A stretch of DNA of 36,701 bases from Lentisphaeria bacterium (GTDB lineage: Bacteria > Verrucomicrobiota > Lentisphaeria > Victivallales > Victivallaceae). Positions 8,546 through 29,981 of this stretch are shown here, one piece after another; within the stretch, counting starts at the first letter, position 1; each line of letters opens with the position of its first letter. The notes under the pieces are model-generated. The model worked only from the letters and a program-made list of their open reading frames with translations. It was not told the origin of the DNA and ran no database searches. The stretch lies in assembly GCA_017414565.1 (NCBI GenBank), contig JAFQLP010000150.1:1-36701 (forward strand). The letters run 5' to 3'. A program made the position numbers and the translations under genes.

Positions 8546-8614
8546 CCCGTCGCACGGGTCCTCTACTGTTGCGGCAACGGAGCAATGACATCCGTTCGCA
8601 GCCCGTCGCACGGG
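8546..8614. repeat. Twin mini-hairpins at the 3' end of the macrodomain gene
   Basis: The 13-mer CCCGTCGCACGGG occurs at 8546-8558 and again at 8602-8614. Each copy can fold as a 5-bp stem with a 3-nt loop. The first lies just after the macrodomain stop (minus strand), the second inside its last codons. No U-tract follows on the minus strand. Confidence 0.5.
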
Positions 8615-9111
8615 CCCAGCAGACGGCGGTAGATCTGACAGGCTTCTTCGTGGAAACAGCAGAAAATCACCAGTTCCGGTAATACCTCCTGCCATGCCCG
8701 GACCGTTGCCACCGCGATCGCCGCCGCCCGTTCAGCCGGAAAATGGTAAACCCCGGTCGAAATACACGGAAATGCCACCGAGCGGCAATGATGCCCGGCC
8801 GCCAATGCCAGTGAATTGCGATAACTGTTGGCCAACAGTTCATCTTCGTTGGCCCGGCCGCCGTGCCACACCGGCCCGGGGGTGTGGATCACCCATCCGG
8901 CCGGCAGCCGGAATCCGGGTGTGATCCGGGCTTCTCCGGTGGGACAGCCACCGAATTCCCGGCACGCCGCCAGCAGTTCCGGTCCGGCGGCCCGGTGAAT
9001 GGCCCCATCCACTCCGCCGCCGCCCAACAGCGAACAATTGGCGGCATTGACGATGGCATCGACCTCCAGACGGGTGATATCACCGCACCATATCCGGCAT
9101 TCCCGCGTCAT
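8563..9111 (-). CDS. Macrodomain protein (ADP-ribose binding, YmdB/O-acetyl-ADP-ribose deacetylase type)
   Basis: A 182-residue stand-alone macrodomain. Motifs in order: [28 protein letters not shown] with the ADP-ribose-binding VNAAN and Gly-rich loop, [20 protein letters not shown], and the phosphate-loop segment [10 protein letters not shown]. The family binds ADP-ribose and often removes ADP-ribosyl groups or deacetylates O-acetyl-ADP-ribose in the cytosol; the exact substrate is not visible. The start overlaps the stop of the HNH gene as ATGA, so it is translationally coupled, and both follow metG. It could be a housekeeping hydrolase, or together with HNH a small nucleic-acid-related unit; the latter is speculation from the coupling alone. 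Confidence 0.88.
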
Positions 9112-18016: not shown

Positions 18017-18877
18017 ATGGATCTCAACAGCACCTGTTGGCAATGTGTCATGGCCCCCTTGACCGATACTGTCCGGCGCGCTCTGCCCGATGAACCCGGC
18101 CGCTCCCGGCTGTTCCGGCGGATGCTGGCCAATCTGGCAACGCTCGCTGATAATGCGTCCCCGCCGGAGGCCTCGGCGGTGATCCAGTGCGCGATCAAAG
18201 CGACCATCGGCGACCATGATTTCTACCGGGAGATCAAGGACCGCTCCACCGATCTGGGATTGTCCATGCTGCCGACCCTGCAGGAATTGGTGGACCGCTC
18301 CGACGATCCTTTTGAAACGGCGGTCCGGCTCGTGATCGGCGGCAACATCATCGACTACGGCTGCCATCCCGATTTTGATCTGAATACGGCGGAAACCCAG
18401 ATCCGCGGCGTATTGGATCTGCCGCTGGACAGGACCGCCCTGAACCGGGCCCGGCAATTGATGGAAAATGCCGGTTCGATCCTTTACATCCTCGACAATT
18501 GCGGCGAAGCGGTGCTGGACCGGCTGCTGGTGGAACGGTTTGCCGGTAAAATCACCATCGGGGTGCGCGGCGAAGCGATTTACAACGATGTGACCCGTTA
18601 CGATCTGATCCGGTCCCGCTATCCGCAACTGCCGGTCATCGACACCGGCGACTGCACCCCCGGGGTCGCCCTGCGCCGGGCCTCGGCGGCATTTCAGCAA
18701 ACCATGCGGCAGACCGATCTGGTGATCGCCAAAGGTCAGGGCAATTACGAGACTCTCGACCGTTACGACCGGCCGATCATCCATCTGCTGCGGATCAAAT
18801 GCCCGGTCATCGCCAATCTGCTCGGGGCTCCGCTCGGCGCGTTGCAAATACTGGTACGCAATGCGGAGGATCTTTAG
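18017..18877 (+). CDS. DUF89 (ARMT1-like / damage-control phosphatase) family protein
   Basis: A 286-residue protein of the DUF89 fold. Visible marks are the N-terminal CWQCVMAP, the metal-site block ILYILDNCGEAVLDRLL (Asp-Asn), GVRGEAIYNDVT, and KGQGNYETL near the end. Known members are metal-dependent phosphatases that remove phosphate from damaged or surplus sugar phosphates and related metabolites; the substrate here is unknown. The N-terminal Cys pair and size fit the prokaryotic subfamily. It starts 14 nt after lnt with an AAAGG site and overlaps the following protease start by 17 nt, so the three genes form one run without obvious metabolic connection. Confidence 0.85.
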   Translation: MDLNSTCWQCVMAPLTDTVRRALPDEPGRSRLFRRMLANLATLADNASPPEASAVIQCAIKATIGDHDFYREIKDRSTDLGLSMLPTLQELVDRSDDPFETAVRLVIGGNIIDYGCHPDFDLNTAETQIRGVLDLPLDRTALNRARQLMENAGSILYILDNCGEAVLDRLLVERFAGKITIGVRGEAIYNDVTRYDLIRSRYPQLPVIDTGDCTPGVALRRASAAFQQTMRQTDLVIAKGQGNYETLDRYDRPIIHLLRIKCPVIANLLGAPLGALQILVRNAEDL

Positions 18878-22194: not shown

Positions 22195-22665
22195 ATGAAA
22201 AACAAACATCTTTTTTCGCTGTTGATTGCCGCGTGGCTTTGCGGCGGCTGTGTTACGGAACCCCCGGCGGTACCGGACCCCGCGACTGATCCGCAGCTGG
22301 CCACCGGCATCGCCACCGGCAATGCCATGCTGGAAGCGTTCCGGACCGATGATGCGGCAGATTTTCTGGCGCAACTGCCGGAAAATTCCACCGCCCAGTT
22401 CGGAGAAAAAGAATTCAAGGCATCCCGCAAAAACATGATCGACACCATGGGGGAACTCAAATCCTATGAATTCCTGTGCTGTCTGGAAATGCCGCAACCG
22501 GCCGCCGTCAATGGCAAACAACCGCTGCTGCGGCCGCTGATCTGGAAGGTCCGCTTCCTGCGGAAAACGGTTTCCGGGCGTGACGTCTATCAGGAAATGC
22601 TCTTCCGGGCCGTGGTCGGTCAGCTCGACGGCAAACCCTATGTATTGAGTTTCGGATTTCTCTGA
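22195..22665 (+). CDS. Small predicted lipoprotein (SnoaL/DUF-like)
   Basis: A 156-residue protein with a lipoprotein signal: MKNKHLFSLLIAAWLCGGC, likely lipidated at Cys19. The rest has a helix (GNAMLEAFRTDDAADFLAQL), then FKASRKNMIDTMGELKSYEFLCCLEM, and ends in beta strands (WKVRFLRKTV, QEMLFRAVVGQLDGKPYVLSFGFL). The layout recalls NTF2/SnoaL-like or DUF3887-type small secreted domains, but no family is certain. GGAGG nine bases upstream selects the ATG at 22195 over one at 22186. The 3' end overlaps the convergent RNase R gene by 28 nt. Confidence 0.82.
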   Translation: MKNKHLFSLLIAAWLCGGCVTEPPAVPDPATDPQLATGIATGNAMLEAFRTDDAADFLAQLPENSTAQFGEKEFKASRKNMIDTMGELKSYEFLCCLEMPQPAAVNGKQPLLRPLIWKVRFLRKTVSGRDVYQEMLFRAVVGQLDGKPYVLSFGFL

Positions 22666-24635
22666 TCGCGGCGGTTTCTGACCGCACAGAATTCGGCGCT
22701 GTTCCGTACCGGATCGATCCCGGTCAACCGGAGCAGCACCGGATCGCCGCAGTTGTATCCGGCGGTATCGGCGATATCCAACTGCCGCCGCCGGAACCCG
22801 GATGACGGAGAATACCGCGGTTTCGGCACGAATCCGTGCATTCCCAGTTCCGGCAGATCCACCACCAGCCCGGCCGGGATGATCCGCACCACCAATCCCT
22901 GATAACATTTCTCCGGATCGCGTTCCTGACACTCCATCAGGTAACGCAATTTCAACCGGTCGCAGGCGGCAAAATACGCGCTGTCGTTGTTTTCCTCTTT
23001 CAGCGAACAGGAAACGGCCAGCCGGGCCATGGCTGACTGACCGCGGGTGCGTCGGTTCTGATCAAAATTCCACAACTGCTGATGAACGGTCAGATCCGTA
23101 TAACGGCGGATCGGACTGGTAAAATGGCAATAACCGGTTTTCCCCAATCCGTAGTGCAGTTCCGGCAATTCGCGGTAACGCGCATGGGGCATCGCCCGGA
23201 GCAGATACCCCAACAGCAGCGGGCGCAACGGTCCCTCCGGCAATCGGGCAATGAATACCAGCATGTTGCTGCGGTTCGTCAAATCGCCGGTGGCGATCCC
23301 GAAATCCGACTCCGCCATCGCGGAAAATTCTTCCAGTTTCTCCGGCGTCGGTTCTTCATGCACCCGGTACACCCCGGGAATCCCCAGCCGCTGCAGTTCC
23401 GCCCCGACCGCACTGTTGGCGGCCAGCATACATTCCTCCACGATCTGCTCCGCGGTCCGCGGCTCCCTGACCGATATGCCCCGTATTTGATCCGCATTCT
23501 CATCACAGATCAACCGCACCTCCGGCAATGCCAGATCAATGACTTTTTCGGCCGCCAAACGCCGTTGCCGCATCATGCCGGTGATCTGGGCCAGCAATTT
23601 CAATTTTTCGCAGGCTTCATCCGGCCAGCCGCCATTATCCCGCCCGTGTTCAAGAAATTGCTGTACCGCATCGTAATGGAGCCGGTGCCGCACCCGGATC
23701 GTGGTATGACAGCGGCGGCTCTCCAGAACCCGCCCGGTGGATCGCTCCACCTGCAAAATCACCGAATGTGCGGGACAATCCCCGCCTTCATGCAAACTGA
23801 TTTTGGAGGTCAGAGCCGCCGGCAGCATCGGCAATGTCCGCCCCGGCAAATAGGCCGTAAAGGCCCGTTCTGCCGCGGCCCGGTCAAATACGCTGCCATG
23901 GGGAACAAAGGCCGCCACATCGGCGATATGGACCCCGATCTCCCAGGTATTCCGATCATTGCCGGGGGCAATACTGACGGCATCATCGTAATCTTTTGCA
24001 TCGGCCGGATCGATGGTCATGCAGTAACGCCCGGTAAAATCCTCCCGCGGGACCGGTTCCGGCTCCAGCAGGGCGGCCGCGCGGTTTTCCTCTCCGGTAT
24101 AGGGCGGCGGCAGATCAAATTCCTGACAGACGGCATCCAGATCGCCGCGGATCGAACCGGCGGCACCGATGACCCCGGCGATACCGGCCCGGTTGCCGGC
24201 CGGATCACGCAACAGTTTGAAATGCACCCAATCGCCGATGCGCGCGCCTTTGCGCCCGCCGACCAACGGGAAATCCCCGCCCACGCGCCGGTTCAGCGGC
24301 CGCACCATGCCGCCCGGCAAAACTTCGCCCACGGCACTTTCGCGGGCGGCTTTCACAACAGCAACGACGGCACCGGCCGGGCCGGGATCGCCCCGCCGGG
24401 GCGGCAGGGGGCGGATCCGCACGGTATCGCCATCGAGGGCACCGCCCAGATATTTGACCGGAATGAACACATCGGGCATTTCCTGTTCCGTATCGACTTT
24501 GACAAAACCGAATCCGCCGCCGGCCATCTTCAAAACGCCGGTCCATTCCGCGCCGGTCAGTTCCGGTCCATTCAGCGTCTGCCGTTCCCGTCGCTCCCGC
24601 AACCGGCGGAGACGCTTTTTTTTCTCTTTTCTCAT
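22638..24635 (-). CDS. rnr: RNase R/RNase II-family 3'-5' exoribonuclease
   Basis: A 665-residue exoribonuclease of the RNR family. It opens with a very basic segment (RKEKKKRLRRLRERRER). A cold-shock domain (about 30-75, with GGGFGFVKVDT and DVFIPVKYL) and a second OB region follow. The catalytic RNB domain (about 195-525) has TIDPADAKDYDDAVS with the metal-binding Asp cluster, GVHIADVAAFV, RTLPMLP and HFTSPIRRYTDLTVHQQL. A C-terminal S1 domain (about 570-655) closes the protein. It is shorter than the E. coli enzyme because the N-terminal helix-turn-helix region is absent. RNase R degrades structured RNA and could work with the PcnB-like polymerase encoded here. Assignment to RNase R rather than RNase II rests on the basic tail and S1 layout. 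Confidence 0.88.
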   Translation of the reverse strand: MRKEKKKRLRRLRERRERQTLNGPELTGAEWTGVLKMAGGGFGFVKVDTEQEMPDVFIPVKYLGGALDGDTVRIRPLPPRRGDPGPAGAVVAVVKAARESAVGEVLPGGMVRPLNRRVGGDFPLVGGRKGARIGDWVHFKLLRDPAGNRAGIAGVIGAAGSIRGDLDAVCQEFDLPPPYTGEENRAAALLEPEPVPREDFTGRYCMTIDPADAKDYDDAVSIAPGNDRNTWEIGVHIADVAAFVPHGSVFDRAAAERAFTAYLPGRTLPMLPAALTSKISLHEGGDCPAHSVILQVERSTGRVLESRRCHTTIRVRHRLHYDAVQQFLEHGRDNGGWPDEACEKLKLLAQITGMMRQRRLAAEKVIDLALPEVRLICDENADQIRGISVREPRTAEQIVEECMLAANSAVGAELQRLGIPGVYRVHEEPTPEKLEEFSAMAESDFGIATGDLTNRSNMLVFIARLPEGPLRPLLLGYLLRAMPHARYRELPELHYGLGKTGYCHFTSPIRRYTDLTVHQQLWNFDQNRRTRGQSAMARLAVSCSLKEENNDSAYFAACDRLKLRYLMECQERDPEKCYQGLVVRIIPAGLVVDLPELGMHGFVPKPRYSPSSGFRRRQLDIADTAGYNCGDPVLLRLTGIDPVRNSAEFCAVRNRRDQRNPKLNT

Positions 24636-24757: not shown

Positions 24758-24786
24758 TTGCTATTCGGGCCGCGGCTTGTTATATT
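24758..24786 (+). promoter_or_regulatory. Putative promoter of wecE-ATP-grasp
   Basis: TTGCTA and TATATT with a 17-bp spacer and an extended -10 TGT. It is divergent from the rnr promoter, with the two -35 boxes about 40 bp apart. Confidence 0.7.
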
Positions 24787-24834: not shown

Positions 24835-25977
24835 ATGTCATTCATACCTTTCAACAAACCCTGTATTGCCGGGCAGGAACTGTGGAACATCGCCCAGGCG
24901 GTACAGCGGGAACATCTGTCCGGCGATGGATGGTTCACCCGGCAATGTTGTGAATGGATGGAACAGCAGTTCCATGCCCGCAAAGTCCTGCTGACCCACT
25001 CCTGCACCGCCGCACTGGAAATGGCGGCGATCCTCTGCGACATCCGGCCCGGCGATGAATTCATCGTACCGAGTTACACCTTTGTCTCCACCGCCAATGC
25101 CTTTGTCCTGCGCGGCGGGGTGCCGGTGTTCGTCGATATCCGTCCCGACACCCTGAATCTGGATGAAACCCTGCTGGAACGGGCCATCACGCCCCGCACC
25201 AAAGTCATTGTCCCGGTGCATTATGCCGGGATCGCCTGCGACATGACCGCGATCATGGAAATTGCCCGGCGGCACCATCTGCCGGTGGTCGAAGATGCGG
25301 CGCAGGGCGTGGGCTCATCCTGGCGCGGCCAATATCTGGGGACCATCGGCCATCTGGGCTGTTACAGTTTCCATGAAACCAAAAATTTCATCTCCGGCGA
25401 AGGCGGAGCTCTGGTCATCAACGATGAACGGTTCCTGGAACGCGCGGAGATCATCCGGGAAAAAGGAACCGACCGCAGCCGTTTTTTCCGCGGCATGGTG
25501 GACAAATACACCTGGGTGGATATCGGCTCCAGTTACCTGCCCGGCGAACTGACCGCCGCGTTTCTTCATGCCCAGTTGATGGAATCCGGCAAAATCACGG
25601 AGCGGCGGCTGGCGATCTGGCAGCATTATCACGAAAATCTCGCGCCGCTGGAACAGCAGGGGCTGATCCGCCGCCCGGTCGTCCCGCCCGGCTGCTGCCA
25701 CGGCGGCCACATGTACTATCTGCTGACCCGCACTCCGGCGGAACGCGCCGGCTTGATCGCCTGGCTGGCGGAACGGCAGATCGAAGCGGTCTTCCACTAT
25801 GTGCCGCTCCACCAATCGCCCATGGGGCGGCAACTGGCCCCGCACACCCCGCCGCTGCCGGTCACCGAAGATCTCCATGCCCGGCTGTTGCGGCTTCCCT
25901 GTTTCTGCGAACTCCAGCCCGGCCAGATCGACCGGGTCTGTGCGGCCGTAACTGATTTCTTTGCCCGGTCATCGTGA
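24835..25977 (+). CDS. wecE: dTDP-4-amino-4,6-dideoxygalactose transaminase (WecE/RffA type)
   Basis: A 380-residue PLP-dependent DegT/DnrJ/EryC1-family aminotransferase. It resembles WecE along its whole length from memory: IPFNKPCIAGQEL, LSGDGWFTRQC, VLLTHSCTAALEMAA, VPSYTFVSTANAFVLRGG, VPVHYAGIAC, VVEDAAQGVG, CYSFHETKNF with the PLP Lys at about residue 183, EIIREKGTDRSRFFRG and YTWVDIGSSYLPGEL. WecE aminates dTDP-4-keto-6-deoxyglucose to dTDP-4-amino-4,6-dideoxygalactose for enterobacterial common antigen or other surface glycans. AGGAG precedes the ATG. No other wec gene is in the window. It is paired with an ATP-grasp gene four bases downstream. Confidence 0.9.
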   Translation: MSFIPFNKPCIAGQELWNIAQAVQREHLSGDGWFTRQCCEWMEQQFHARKVLLTHSCTAALEMAAILCDIRPGDEFIVPSYTFVSTANAFVLRGGVPVFVDIRPDTLNLDETLLERAITPRTKVIVPVHYAGIACDMTAIMEIARRHHLPVVEDAAQGVGSSWRGQYLGTIGHLGCYSFHETKNFISGEGGALVINDERFLERAEIIREKGTDRSRFFRGMVDKYTWVDIGSSYLPGELTAAFLHAQLMESGKITERRLAIWQHYHENLAPLEQQGLIRRPVVPPGCCHGGHMYYLLTRTPAERAGLIAWLAERQIEAVFHYVPLHQSPMGRQLAPHTPPLPVTEDLHARLLRLPCFCELQPGQIDRVCAAVTDFFARSS

Positions 25978-25981
25978 TATC

Positions 25982-27109
25982 ATGGCTCTCCGGGGGAAAA
26001 AACTGACGGTACTCGGTGCCGGCTATCTGCAACGGCCGCTGATCCGGCGTGCCCGGGAACTGGGTGTCCGCACCATCTGTTTCGCCTGGGAAAACGATGC
26101 GGTCTGCCGCGACGAAGCCGACCGTTTTTACCCGGTTTCGATCCGCGAAAAAGAAACCATCGCCGCCATCTGCCGCGACGAAAAAATCGACGGCATAACC
26201 ACCATTGCCTCGGATGCGGCGGTACCAACCATGACTTTTGTTGCCGATGCGCTCGCACTGCCCGGCAATTCCCCGGCATCCGGCCAGCGAACCACCCACA
26301 AAGGGATCATGCGGGAAATCCTCGCTTCCGCCGGATTGCCCTGCCCGCCATTCCGCCGGGTACGCACCGCCGGTGATATCCATGCCGCGGCGGCGGAACT
26401 CGGTTTTCCGCTGGTCGTCAAACCGTGTGACCGGTCCGGCAGCCTCGGCGTGTGCCGGGTCACGGATCTGCCGGAACTGCTTGCCGCATCCGAAACGGCC
26501 ATAAACTGTTCATTCACCCGCGAAGCCGTGATCGAAAAAGCCATTGACATCGCCCGGGAATTCAGTGTGGAGGGCATCTCATGGCAGGGCGAATACCATC
26601 TGCTGGCCTTCACCGACAAAGAAACCTCCGGCCCGCCGCATTATGTCGAGATCGGCCACCGGCAGCCATCCACACTGCCGGAAACGGTCCGGCACGAAAC
26701 GGCGCAATTTCTGACCCGCGCCCTGCCCGCCCTCGGCATCACCTGCGGAGCCAGCCATGCCGAATGGATGCTGTCCGCCGACGGCCAACTTTTTGTCACC
26801 GAGATCGCGGCCCGCATGGGTGGTGATTTTATCGGGTCCGACCTGGTGCATCTCTCCACCGGCTACGATTTCCTGCGCGGGGTCATGGAAACCGCACTGG
26901 GGGAATTTTCCGGGGTTTCATTCACCCGTTCCCGTTCCGCCGGTATCCGGTTCTGGACACCCGTCACGCCGGAGGTGAAAACCTGGCTGGAAACCACACC
27001 GCGGCCCGACTGGATCGTGACCGGCGAACTCCATCCGGATTCGCTCAAACCGCTCACCTGCAGCGGCGACCGGGCCGGTTATCTCATCTGCTGCGGCCGG
27101 GAGGAATGA
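25982..27109 (+). CDS. ATP-grasp family ligase, probable partner of WecE
   Basis: A 375-residue ATP-grasp enzyme. The N-terminal Rossmann-like domain shows KLTVLGAGYLQRPLIRRARELG, then DGITTIASDAAVPTM. The ATP-binding lobe has GFPLVVKPCDRSGSLGVCRV, with the Lys at about residue 147. The metal and ATP site has FVTEIAARMGGDFIGSDLV (Glu and Arg, as in carbamoyl-phosphate synthase and PurK/PurT relatives). Such enzymes join a carboxylate to an amine or thiol through an acyl phosphate. The substrate cannot be read from the sequence. The gene begins four bases after the wecE stop, without a clear ribosome site, so coupled translation is likely. Joining an acyl or amino-acid group to the 4-amino sugar made by WecE is a reasonable inference. 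Confidence 0.87.
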   Translation: MALRGKKLTVLGAGYLQRPLIRRARELGVRTICFAWENDAVCRDEADRFYPVSIREKETIAAICRDEKIDGITTIASDAAVPTMTFVADALALPGNSPASGQRTTHKGIMREILASAGLPCPPFRRVRTAGDIHAAAAELGFPLVVKPCDRSGSLGVCRVTDLPELLAASETAINCSFTREAVIEKAIDIAREFSVEGISWQGEYHLLAFTDKETSGPPHYVEIGHRQPSTLPETVRHETAQFLTRALPALGITCGASHAEWMLSADGQLFVTEIAARMGGDFIGSDLVHLSTGYDFLRGVMETALGEFSGVSFTRSRSAGIRFWTPVTPEVKTWLETTPRPDWIVTGELHPDSLKPLTCSGDRAGYLICCGREE

Positions 27110-27202
27110 AAAAAGCGGCTGTTGCCAAATGGCTTTGCGGGGAAGACACCTTTTTGAAAAAAGGTTATCTTCCCCGCACCCCATCTTCCCGAAACTTTCA
27201 GC

Positions 27203-27248
27203 GGAATTGTTTTTATCGTCACCGATAAAAGCAATTCCAACTTTTTTT
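27203..27248 (+). terminator. Rho-independent terminator of wecE-ATP-grasp
   Basis: A 16-bp stem with a single G-U pair and a TCAC loop (27203-27238), followed after three bases by seven T residues (27242-27248). It lies 93 nt after the ATP-grasp stop. Confidence 0.85.
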
Positions 27249-27350: not shown

Positions 27351-27395
27351 TAAAAAAAGGCTGTTGCCCACCTTTTTTAAGGTTTGGCAACAGCC
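27351..27395 (-). terminator. Rho-independent terminator of yajC-secDF
   Basis: On the minus strand, GGCTGTTGCC pairs with GGCAACAGCC, with an inner ACCTT/AAGGT pairing, followed by seven T residues (27358-27352). The stem starts 24 nt after the secDF stop. Confidence 0.88.
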
Positions 27396-27419: not shown

Positions 27420-29981
27420 TCACCGGTTGAGGTTGGCGACCCGGCGATGCCAACGGGCCACAAACGGCGCGGCGATGAACATCGAGGAATAGGTGCCGAC
27501 GATTACACCGAGCAGCATGATCAGCACGAAGTCGTTGATCGCCACCCCGCCCCCGAAGAAGAGGAACAGAATCACGATCAGGGTGGTGATGCTGGTGAGC
27601 ATGGTACGGCTCAAGGTGTTGTTGATCGAAATGTTGACGATATCCAGGTAATTGTTGGAAAGGCCGAGATTGACACTTTCGCGTACCCGGTCAAAGATCA
27701 CCACTTTGTCGTTGACGGAATAACCGATAACGGTCAGCACCGCCGCCACCACCGTCAGACTGATGGTGCGGCCCAGCAGAGCATAAATCCCCAACGTCAC
27801 GATCACGTCGTGCGCCAGAGCCACGATACTGGCCGTGGCATACGAGAATTCATAGCGCAGCGTCAGGTAGGCACCGATCCCGATCATGGAGAAGAAGATC
27901 GCCCAGAACGCCGCCCGGATGAAGACCTGACCGATCAGGCCACCGACCGAACTTTCCAGACCGCCGCTGAATTTGGCTTCCGGGAAACTCGCGGTCAGAT
28001 GACCGAGGATGACTTCTTTCGGATTGTTGACCTGCGCGGTCATATCATCGCGGATCAGGATCTCGATCTTCCGGGAATCCCCGGCGGAGGTGGCGTCGAA
28101 TTTGTAAGTCGCCTGGGCCGTGATCCCATTGGCCTTGAGAACCGATTCCACTTTGGCCACCGGCACCTGCTGTTCGCAATTGAACGTCACCTGCGTACCG
28201 CCGGTGAAGTCAACGCTCAAAAAGTCTTTCCCGCGCCAGCAGAAAAGGCCGATGCTCACCAGACAGCAGACCAGAGAAAGCGGCACCCCGATCTTCCAGA
28301 GTTTCGGAAAATCGATCCCGGAAATCTTGAAGAACTGGCGCATTTTCAGCGTCTTCATATTCGGGCAGTAGTTGTAGAGGTAGTCAAAGATCAGCCGGGT
28401 CAGGAAGACCGCCGAGAAGAGAGTCGTCAGGATACCGATACTGAGGGTGACAGCAAAGCCTTTGATGGCACCGGTACCGACCGACATCAGGATCAGCGAG
28501 GTAATCAGCGTGGTCAGGTTGGCATCGACCACCGCCGAAAGCGCGCGGCTGTAACCGGCATCGATCGCAGCAAACAGATTCCGGCCCGCCCGCAATTCCT
28601 CGCGGATGCGTTCAAAAATCAGCACATTGGAGTCCACCGCCATACCGATCGTCAGCACGATACCGGCGATACCCGGCAGTGTCAGCGTGGCATCAAACGC
28701 GGCCATGGCCCCCATGATAAGCACCAGGTTGATGATCAGCGCAAGACTGGCGATCACCCCGCCCAGCAGATAATAGGCGCACATGAAGACGATCACGGCC
28801 ACCATCGACCAGATCCCCACCCAGATACCATTGCGGACATTGTCCGCGCCGAGTTTCGGGTCGGTATCGAAAACCGCATCCACCTTGATCTGGAAGGGGA
28901 AACTGCCGCTGACCAGGGCATCCGCGATGTTTTTGCATTCTTCATCGGAGAAATCCCCCGAAATCGAGGCCGTACCGCCGGTGATCGGCTCGTTGATGTT
29001 CGGCGCGCAATACAGTTTACCGTCGAGAACGATCGCCAACTGACGGTTGACATTCTCCGTGGTGATGCGGGCAAACTGCCGGGCACCGTCACTGTTGAAA
29101 CTCAACTGGATCTGCCGCTGACCATACTGGTCGCGGCCGCCGTAAGCGGAAGTGACCGTTTTGCCGTCCATGGCAGTCCGGTTTTCCACAAAATAGTACC
29201 GGACGATCGGTTTGTCGCCGCTGCGGAATTCGCTGGTCGAAAGCAATTCATAGCCGACCGGCGTCACGAAAGCGAGCGGATTCGCCAGATATTCCTCCAC
29301 CAGCCGGTCATTTTCGGGATGGACCAGCCGGAAACGGAGCTTGGCACTCATGGAGATCAGATTCAGCAGTTTGACTTTTTCATCCTTGGCCACGATCGGG
29401 GCCTTGATCGAAATATAGTCACTGCCGGAGGGCGAAATTTCCGCCTCAAAGATCTTCTGCGATTCAAGCCGCTTGCGGAGGATCTCAATAGCGATGTCGC
29501 GGTAGCGGTCAAATTCATTTGCCATGCGTTCCTCGGCCTCCTGACGGCTGGAACCATCGTTCTGACCGATGGATTCCAGTTTGGCCAGGAAATCTTCATC
29601 CGGGATCAACTGCAGCATGAATTCCACACCGCCGTTGAGGTCAAGCCCCAGACGGATGGAACTGGAAGCTTCCTTGCGGACGGCACTCATCACGTCGCGG
29701 TTATCCTGCACCGAAGTGATGTCCATCAACTTGGCCAGTTCGACACCTTTGGCATCGGCCGCGGCAAGCAGTGTCTGCGAAGCGAAAAGCGACGGGTCCT
29801 TGGCTTCCATTTCCTTGGCATCGGCGATCACCGCCGCCGCCACCGCATCATCGGGGTCCTTCAGCATGGACCGGAATGTATCGTAAAAATTCCGCTGCGA
29901 AAGCGGATACATCGATACACCGAAAACGGCGATCACGACCAACGCGATCACCGTCCGCAAAAACAGGGGTCGTTTATTCAT
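27420..29981 (-). CDS. secDF: Fused protein translocase subunit SecDF
   Basis: An 853-residue inner-membrane protein in which SecD and SecF are one chain. They use the proton gradient to help pull exported proteins through SecYEG. The SecD half has an N-terminal helix, a long periplasmic P1 region (about 30-380, with RLGLDLNGGVEF and LAIVLDGKLYCAPNINEPI) and the MAVDSNVLIFERIREEL motif. The SecF half starts near residue 555, with SVDFTGGTQVTFN, and carries GYSVNDKVVIFDRVRE. Twelve membrane helices are expected. An AAGGAG site precedes the ATG, 24 nt after yajC. A strong terminator follows. The wide spread of signal peptides in this window fits an active Sec pathway. Confidence 0.96.
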   Translation of the reverse strand: MNKRPLFLRTVIALVVIAVFGVSMYPLSQRNFYDTFRSMLKDPDDAVAAAVIADAKEMEAKDPSLFASQTLLAAADAKGVELAKLMDITSVQDNRDVMSAVRKEASSSIRLGLDLNGGVEFMLQLIPDEDFLAKLESIGQNDGSSRQEAEERMANEFDRYRDIAIEILRKRLESQKIFEAEISPSGSDYISIKAPIVAKDEKVKLLNLISMSAKLRFRLVHPENDRLVEEYLANPLAFVTPVGYELLSTSEFRSGDKPIVRYYFVENRTAMDGKTVTSAYGGRDQYGQRQIQLSFNSDGARQFARITTENVNRQLAIVLDGKLYCAPNINEPITGGTASISGDFSDEECKNIADALVSGSFPFQIKVDAVFDTDPKLGADNVRNGIWVGIWSMVAVIVFMCAYYLLGGVIASLALIINLVLIMGAMAAFDATLTLPGIAGIVLTIGMAVDSNVLIFERIREELRAGRNLFAAIDAGYSRALSAVVDANLTTLITSLILMSVGTGAIKGFAVTLSIGILTTLFSAVFLTRLIFDYLYNYCPNMKTLKMRQFFKISGIDFPKLWKIGVPLSLVCCLVSIGLFCWRGKDFLSVDFTGGTQVTFNCEQQVPVAKVESVLKANGITAQATYKFDATSAGDSRKIEILIRDDMTAQVNNPKEVILGHLTASFPEAKFSGGLESSVGGLIGQVFIRAAFWAIFFSMIGIGAYLTLRYEFSYATASIVALAHDVIVTLGIYALLGRTISLTVVAAVLTVIGYSVNDKVVIFDRVRESVNLGLSNNYLDIVNISINNTLSRTMLTSITTLIVILFLFFGGGVAINDFVLIMLLGVIVGTYSSMFIAAPFVARWHRRVANLNR

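Follow-up and report, generated by a model that had tools for sequence, protein, structure and literature searches.

A wecE gene followed by an ATP-grasp ligase gene in a Lentisphaeria bacterium, and a possible route to an N-acylated envelope amino sugar

We analyzed a stretch of 36,701 nucleotides from a Lentisphaeria bacterium (GCA_017414565.1, contig JAFQLP010000150.1, positions 1 to 36,701 of the forward strand; hereafter the window), in which a wecE gene is directly followed by a gene encoding an ATP-grasp ligase. In enterobacteria, according to PMC7439462, the 4-amino group is acetylated by WecD using acetyl-CoA, and the locus raises the question of what a ligase does in this position. 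Our preferred reading, to which we give a probability of roughly 0.6, is that the two enzymes catalyze successive steps in the making of an envelope amino sugar, the ligase acylating dTDP-4-amino-4,6-dideoxygalactose (dTDP-Fuc4N) in WecD's stead before the product enters a lipid-linked route. The WecE pathway itself is known, and the ATP-grasp gene in the place of WecD beside wecE is new: a literature search reaching few subscription papers found no paper that names both ATP-grasp and WecE or describes this pairing.

The two-gene unit and its WecE

The wecE gene (24835-25977, + strand, 380 amino acids) ends with a TGA codon (25975-25977) that is separated by four bases (TATC) from the ATG of the ATP-grasp gene (25982-27109, + strand, 375 amino acids from this ATG), exactly the spacing that an earlier note on this DNA had reported. 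The list of open reading frames offers an alternative start for the ligase at TTG 25961; an alignment of 8 orthologues favors ATG 25982. Both flanking genes, encoding an RNase R-like RNB protein (22638-24635) and SecDF (27420-29981), lie on the opposite strand, so that the pair is isolated as a transcription unit. Downstream, a search for stems followed by T-runs located an intrinsic terminator (27203-27248, + strand) with a stem of 16 pairs (27203-27238) followed by AACTTTTTTT; its RNA fold has an energy of -20.6 kcal/mol (z -6.4), equaled by none of 200 shuffles, in agreement with the single strong terminator previously proposed. Between the ATP-grasp stop codon and this terminator lies a GC-rich hairpin that is not followed by a T-run (27136-27178, + strand; z -5.6 for 27115-27185). 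Upstream, the single + strand sigma-70-like site (24758-24786, TTGCTA-17-TATATT with a TG before the -10 hexamer) is a weak candidate promoter with 9 of 12 consensus matches. As 4 such sites were found in the 3-kb region against 1.2 expected, the promoter is plausible as a consensus match only. Of the earlier proposal of one promoter and a complete two-gene unit, the isolation by opposite-strand genes therefore stands, whereas the promoter amounts to that consensus match.

We also observed that GGCTGTTGCC occurs three times within 280 bases downstream of the pair (27110-27126, 27352-27368 and 27386-27395) and is otherwise absent from the window (0.15 expected), two of the copies forming a hairpin at the end of secDF. 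Elsewhere, the window encodes a macro-domain protein (8563-9111) and an ARMT1-like damage-control phosphatase (18017-18877).

The window WecE matched PF01041 (6e-87), TIGR02379 (565 bits, cut-off 434.85) and NF008687 (588 bits, cut-off 375), passing both NCBI cut-offs and bearing out its earlier assignment as WecE-type. Its best solved relatives are the WecE structures 4PIW and 6BLG, and its PLP lysine (K183) lies in an HETKN motif aligned with that of 4PIW. From its family, the product is predicted to be dTDP-Fuc4N. The genome carries one rmlB (495 bits) and one rmlA (490 bits), both above cut-offs and side by side, so a supply of dTDP-4-keto-6-deoxyglucose is present.

The first enzyme is thus shared with the enterobacterial WecE-WecD (RffA-RffC) pair, the wecE copies in Enterobacteriaceae records being 57-58% identical to that of the window; in Enterobacter, rffC adjoins wecE, as the N-acylating candidate adjoins wecE here. 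The second enzyme differs: WecD is an acetyl-CoA-dependent GNAT, whereas an ATP-grasp ligase occupies its position in the window. No WecD-like GNAT was found in the window genome by profile search at 1e-10, and the gene adjoining wecE in the window is the ATP-grasp gene rather than a GNAT of the WecD type (TIGR02382/NF008212).

Family, fold and active site of the ligase

The ligase matched ATP-grasp_4 (PF13535) with 57 bits (cut-off 27). Its nearest solved relative in sequence is the L-amino-acid ligase BL00235 (E 1.5e-28 alone, 3.5e-44 with a profile), and BacD also aligns; close homology to an ATP-grasp enzyme of unrelated known function, which the earlier note had named as grounds for abandoning the idea, was not found. 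An AlphaFold model (pLDDT 86.4, pTM 0.85) gave as fold matches, in order, 4DIM, which is annotated as a phosphoribosylglycinamide synthetase, then 3VOT (BL00235, 26% identity in the fold alignment), RizA and YwfE/BacD. Residues E223, E261, E274 and R278 align with E275, E313, E326 and R330 of BacD (chain numbering), which we take to be its catalytic residues. These four, together with K107 and K147, are invariant in 8 of 8 aligned orthologues. The protein thus has one trait expected of an L-amino-acid ligase, an ATP-grasp domain with intact acids and arginine. Because of this fold and the aligned invariant residues, it looks like an intact and active carboxylate-amine ligase.

The window ligase has the fold and the aligned active-site acids and arginine in common with the L-amino-acid ligases BL00235/3VOT, BacD/YwfE and RizA, but it is only about 17-26% identical to them, is encoded with sugar-nucleotide genes and has no match to the LAL_C2 domain (PF18603) at E 0.001. 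This domain was matched in the second ATP-grasp unit of genome G418 and in G133 and G168.

Orthology to PurT or PurK was rejected (51.4 bits against a cut-off of 339 and 46.1 against 318, respectively), as was orthology to D-Ala-D-Ala ligase or carbamoyl-phosphate synthase, for which scores fell far under the cut-offs. A search in phages returned no match.

PurT, which joins formate to glycinamide ribonucleotide, is nevertheless a distant relative (PRK09288, 51 bits; fold match 1kj8), and N-formylated 4-amino sugars are described in PMC3210612. The ligase might accordingly join formate or acetate in a PurT-like way and yield Fuc4NFo or Fuc4NAc ATP-dependently. With PurT at 51 bits against 339 and the L-amino-acid ligases scoring higher in sequence, we hold this to be quite improbable.

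Distribution of the ligase and exchange with an acetyltransferase

We counted ligase orthologues above 500 bits, which excluded G133 and G168 from the class rows; in a phylum sample of 387 genomes, the matches that came after the orthologues, at 244 bits and below, were not counted, nor were GNAT matches under 300 bits (G071, G122, G139 and G158). Among 137 genomes of the order, wecE is present in 16, a ligase orthologue in 8 (>350 bits) and a GNAT in 9, with three further ligase matches of at most 136 bits and one further weak GNAT match. Among 197 genomes of the class, the corresponding counts are 19, 9 and 9 (WecD-like GNAT). wecE and the ligase orthologue occur together in 6 class genomes (Fisher p 2.5e-5, or 2e-4 at genus level, phylogeny being ignored), wecE and the GNAT in 9, and the ligase orthologue and the GNAT in none (p 0.008 given wecE, 0.0009 at order level, again ignoring phylogeny). 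The GNAT lies within about 1 kb of wecE on the same contig in all 9 genomes that have it, and for the 3 of these that were scanned its full-length NCBIfam match is WecD (PRK10975, 54-69 bits, cut-off 219). The earlier note had asked whether genomes with the ATP-grasp gene lack WecD homologues, and the GNAT is indeed found in 0 of the 9 class genomes with an orthologue. This exclusion, with the co-occurrence with wecE, argues for the suggested different modification, an ATP-driven attachment of an acyl group or amino acid.

The other 4 wecE genomes have a methyltransferase (G003, G138) or a hexapeptide transferase (G155, G168) near wecE, G168 also having a distant ATP-grasp. A SAM-methyltransferase gene adjoins wecE at 2185-3000 of L089 and at 1257-1958 of L110, in genomes with neither GNAT nor ligase orthologue, and possibly serves another modification of the amino sugar.

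Thirteen genomes have an orthologue that scores above 500 bits. A full-length wecE lies within about 4 kb in the same cluster in 6 of them and elsewhere in 3 (G063, G064 and G086), a wecE fragment lies 3 kb away in one, and no wecE was found in the remaining 3 (G065, G069 and G170), the completeness values of these three being 78%, 83% and 64%. The orthologue therefore lacks an adjoining full-length wecE in 7 of 13 genomes. The wecE-less genomes are weak points of the association, as is the context in G063-G065, where a WecA-like Glycos_transf_4 gene immediately precedes the ligase; in G069 the ligase comes after a TPR/DUF4236 gene. The WecA-like protein of this genus (g3) is about 650 amino acids long (L034 8103-11241, L035 and L036) and was matched by Glycos_transf_4 only at residues 98-246.

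The adjacency in the window could be a coincidence, with the ligase belonging to an unrelated metabolism, and both the three wecE-less genomes and the TPR neighbor speak for it. We consider it very improbable, since the co-occurrence over 197 genomes has a p of 2.5e-5, wecE shares a cluster with the ligase in two families of the order and also in remote members of the phylum, and the three genomes in question are 64-83% complete. Conservation of the ATP-grasp gene without wecE nearby, which the earlier note had seen as a possible refutation, did not materialize.

In other genomes, the pair sits in a larger cassette with a GT2 glycosyltransferase, SMR flippase-like genes and often an SDR, so that the description as a two-gene unit holds in the window but not there. 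Within genus g47, the WecE proteins of G044, G049, G050 and G055 are 90-92% identical. Genomes G044 and G049 have a compact run of ATP-grasp, SDR, GT2, a pair of SMR-type genes and wecE, whereas G050 and G055 carry SMR, GNAT, GT2 and wecE, and the GT2 types of the two arrangements are only about 47% identical. The partner genes of G049 have a G+C content of 44-49% against 55% for its own wecE, a difference suggesting that wecE was already in place when the partner block arrived next to it. Outside the class, the phylum sample of 387 genomes contained four more orthologues above 500 bits, all in comparable cassettes, the next match having 244 bits. Their gene orders are ATP-grasp, SDR, DegT-like, GT2, SMR, SMR and wecE (G256); ATP-grasp, GT2, sulfotransferase, SMR, SMR and wecE (G324); ATP-grasp fused to a second ATP-grasp, GT2, DUF1796 and wecE (G418); and ATP-grasp, SDR, GT2 and SMR, with a wecE match of only 40 residues (G265). 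The second unit of the G418 fusion (L133 8300-10813) matches the C-terminal domain of L-amino-acid ligases, and the fusion suggests two successive ligations.

The SDR was rejected as a required partner, since it was found in only 2 of 137 order genomes and has no match in the window genome at 1e-30. A close homologue of the cassette GT2 was not found in the window genome either: it has two matches, of 28% and 27% identity, for neither of which a link to wecE was seen. One of them, judged by eye, lies in another sugar cluster with CDP-glucose-dehydratase-like and acetolactate-synthase-like genes.

Known L-amino-acid ligases yield free dipeptides, according to PMC6920838. The enzyme might likewise form a dipeptide or another amide for later attachment, or it might act on a lipid-linked or polymerized sugar rather than on dTDP-Fuc4N itself; its place after the WecA-like gene in G063-G065 and the G418 fusion with its L-amino-acid-ligase C-terminal match speak for such a reading. 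We regard this as unlikely, because the ligase occupies the place of a nucleotide-sugar acetyltransferase beside wecE and never occurs together with it.

Proposed pathway and related loci

In the pathway that we favor, acylation of the nucleotide sugar by the ligase, WecE would convert dTDP-4-keto-6-deoxyglucose to dTDP-Fuc4N. Using ATP, the ligase would phosphorylate a small acid, most probably an amino acid, at its carboxylate. It would then form an amide between the activated acid and the 4-amino group of dTDP-Fuc4N, and so take over the task of the acetyl-CoA-dependent WecD. We infer this from the missing acetyltransferase and the amide-forming ligase in its place, in the whole genome here and at the level of the cluster in several relatives, which together point to a different acid being attached to this amine. 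That the acid is an amino acid is favored by the nearest relatives of the ligase, by the second ligases that occur in tandem or fused form, and by the known aminoacylated 4-amino sugars. In relatives with a full cassette, the ArnC/PgfS-like GT2 would transfer the N-acylated sugar to undecaprenyl phosphate, and the ArnE/ArnF-like SMR proteins would flip the lipid-linked sugar. This undecaprenyl-phosphate-sugar route is proposed because the cassette GT2 matches the models of ArnC and PgfS, and the small proteins those of ArnE/ArnF, all below cut-offs. The cassette is in this respect similar to the Arn (Ara4N) pathway, which likewise has an aminotransferase, a GT2 and SMR proteins of these types; it differs in having WecE for ArnB, with all scores against Arn models below cut-offs, and in an ATP-grasp that presumably stands in for the formylation step of ArnA.

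To find similar loci elsewhere, we opened plasmid records, namely 4 of the 200 that matched ATP-grasp and 3 of the 45 that matched wecE. A DegT aminotransferase lies near the ATP-grasp in 3 of the 4, in named sugar or capsule loci; the fourth, from Providencia, is not a sugar locus. The Bacteroides finegoldii record shows DegT, ATP-grasp, ATP-grasp (37% identical), SDR (43% identical to the G049 SDR) and GT. In the Parabacteroides distasonis record and an Enterococcus hirae plasmid, an LAL-like ATP-grasp occurs with a DegT aminotransferase and adjoins a sugar transferase, recalling PglC/PglD/PglE-type diamino-sugar cassettes, where the usual neighbor is PglD. The aminotransferases of these two loci are only 26-27% identical to the window WecE, so the sugar differs. 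Among the genomes, the G133 cluster has DegT, two ATP-grasp genes with LAL_C2 matches and a protein of Glyco_transf_56, presumably the family of WecF, and a DegT aminotransferase with an LAL-like ATP-grasp was also found in G115. Of the three wecE plasmid records, one has rffC adjoining, and two, from alphaproteobacteria, list neither GNAT nor ATP-grasp beside wecE.

To our knowledge, the enzymes that attach amino acids to the amino sugars of O-antigens and capsules are mostly unassigned. PMC3210612 describes the 3- or 4-amino-6-deoxy sugars of these polymers as often N-acylated with alanyl, N-acetylalanyl, N-acetylglycyl or hydroxybutyryl groups, and PMC4431377 ties linked peptide ligases, in a general way, to O-antigen among other products. 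The ligase described here points to a candidate class of enzymes behind the aminoacylated 4-amino sugars of O-antigens. More tentatively, and with odds that we put below even, LAL-like ATP-grasp ligases (single, tandem or fused) may form a widespread branch that decorates the amino groups of nucleotide sugars with amino acids or short peptides and is swapped, as a cassette, with versions that use an acetyltransferase; such a branch could account for the aminoacyl-amino sugars of O-antigens and capsules, and here for an aminoacylated Fuc4N on undecaprenyl phosphate. The natural exchange of GNAT and ATP-grasp within one genus, combined with a known substrate, dTDP-Fuc4N, makes this a two-enzyme system that can be tested directly. 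The 2020 survey of complete genomes in PMC7725333 reports Fuc4NAc only in Gammaproteobacteria, whereas wecE occurs with a WecD-like GNAT in 9 of the 197 class genomes, which extends WecE-type chemistry beyond that group.
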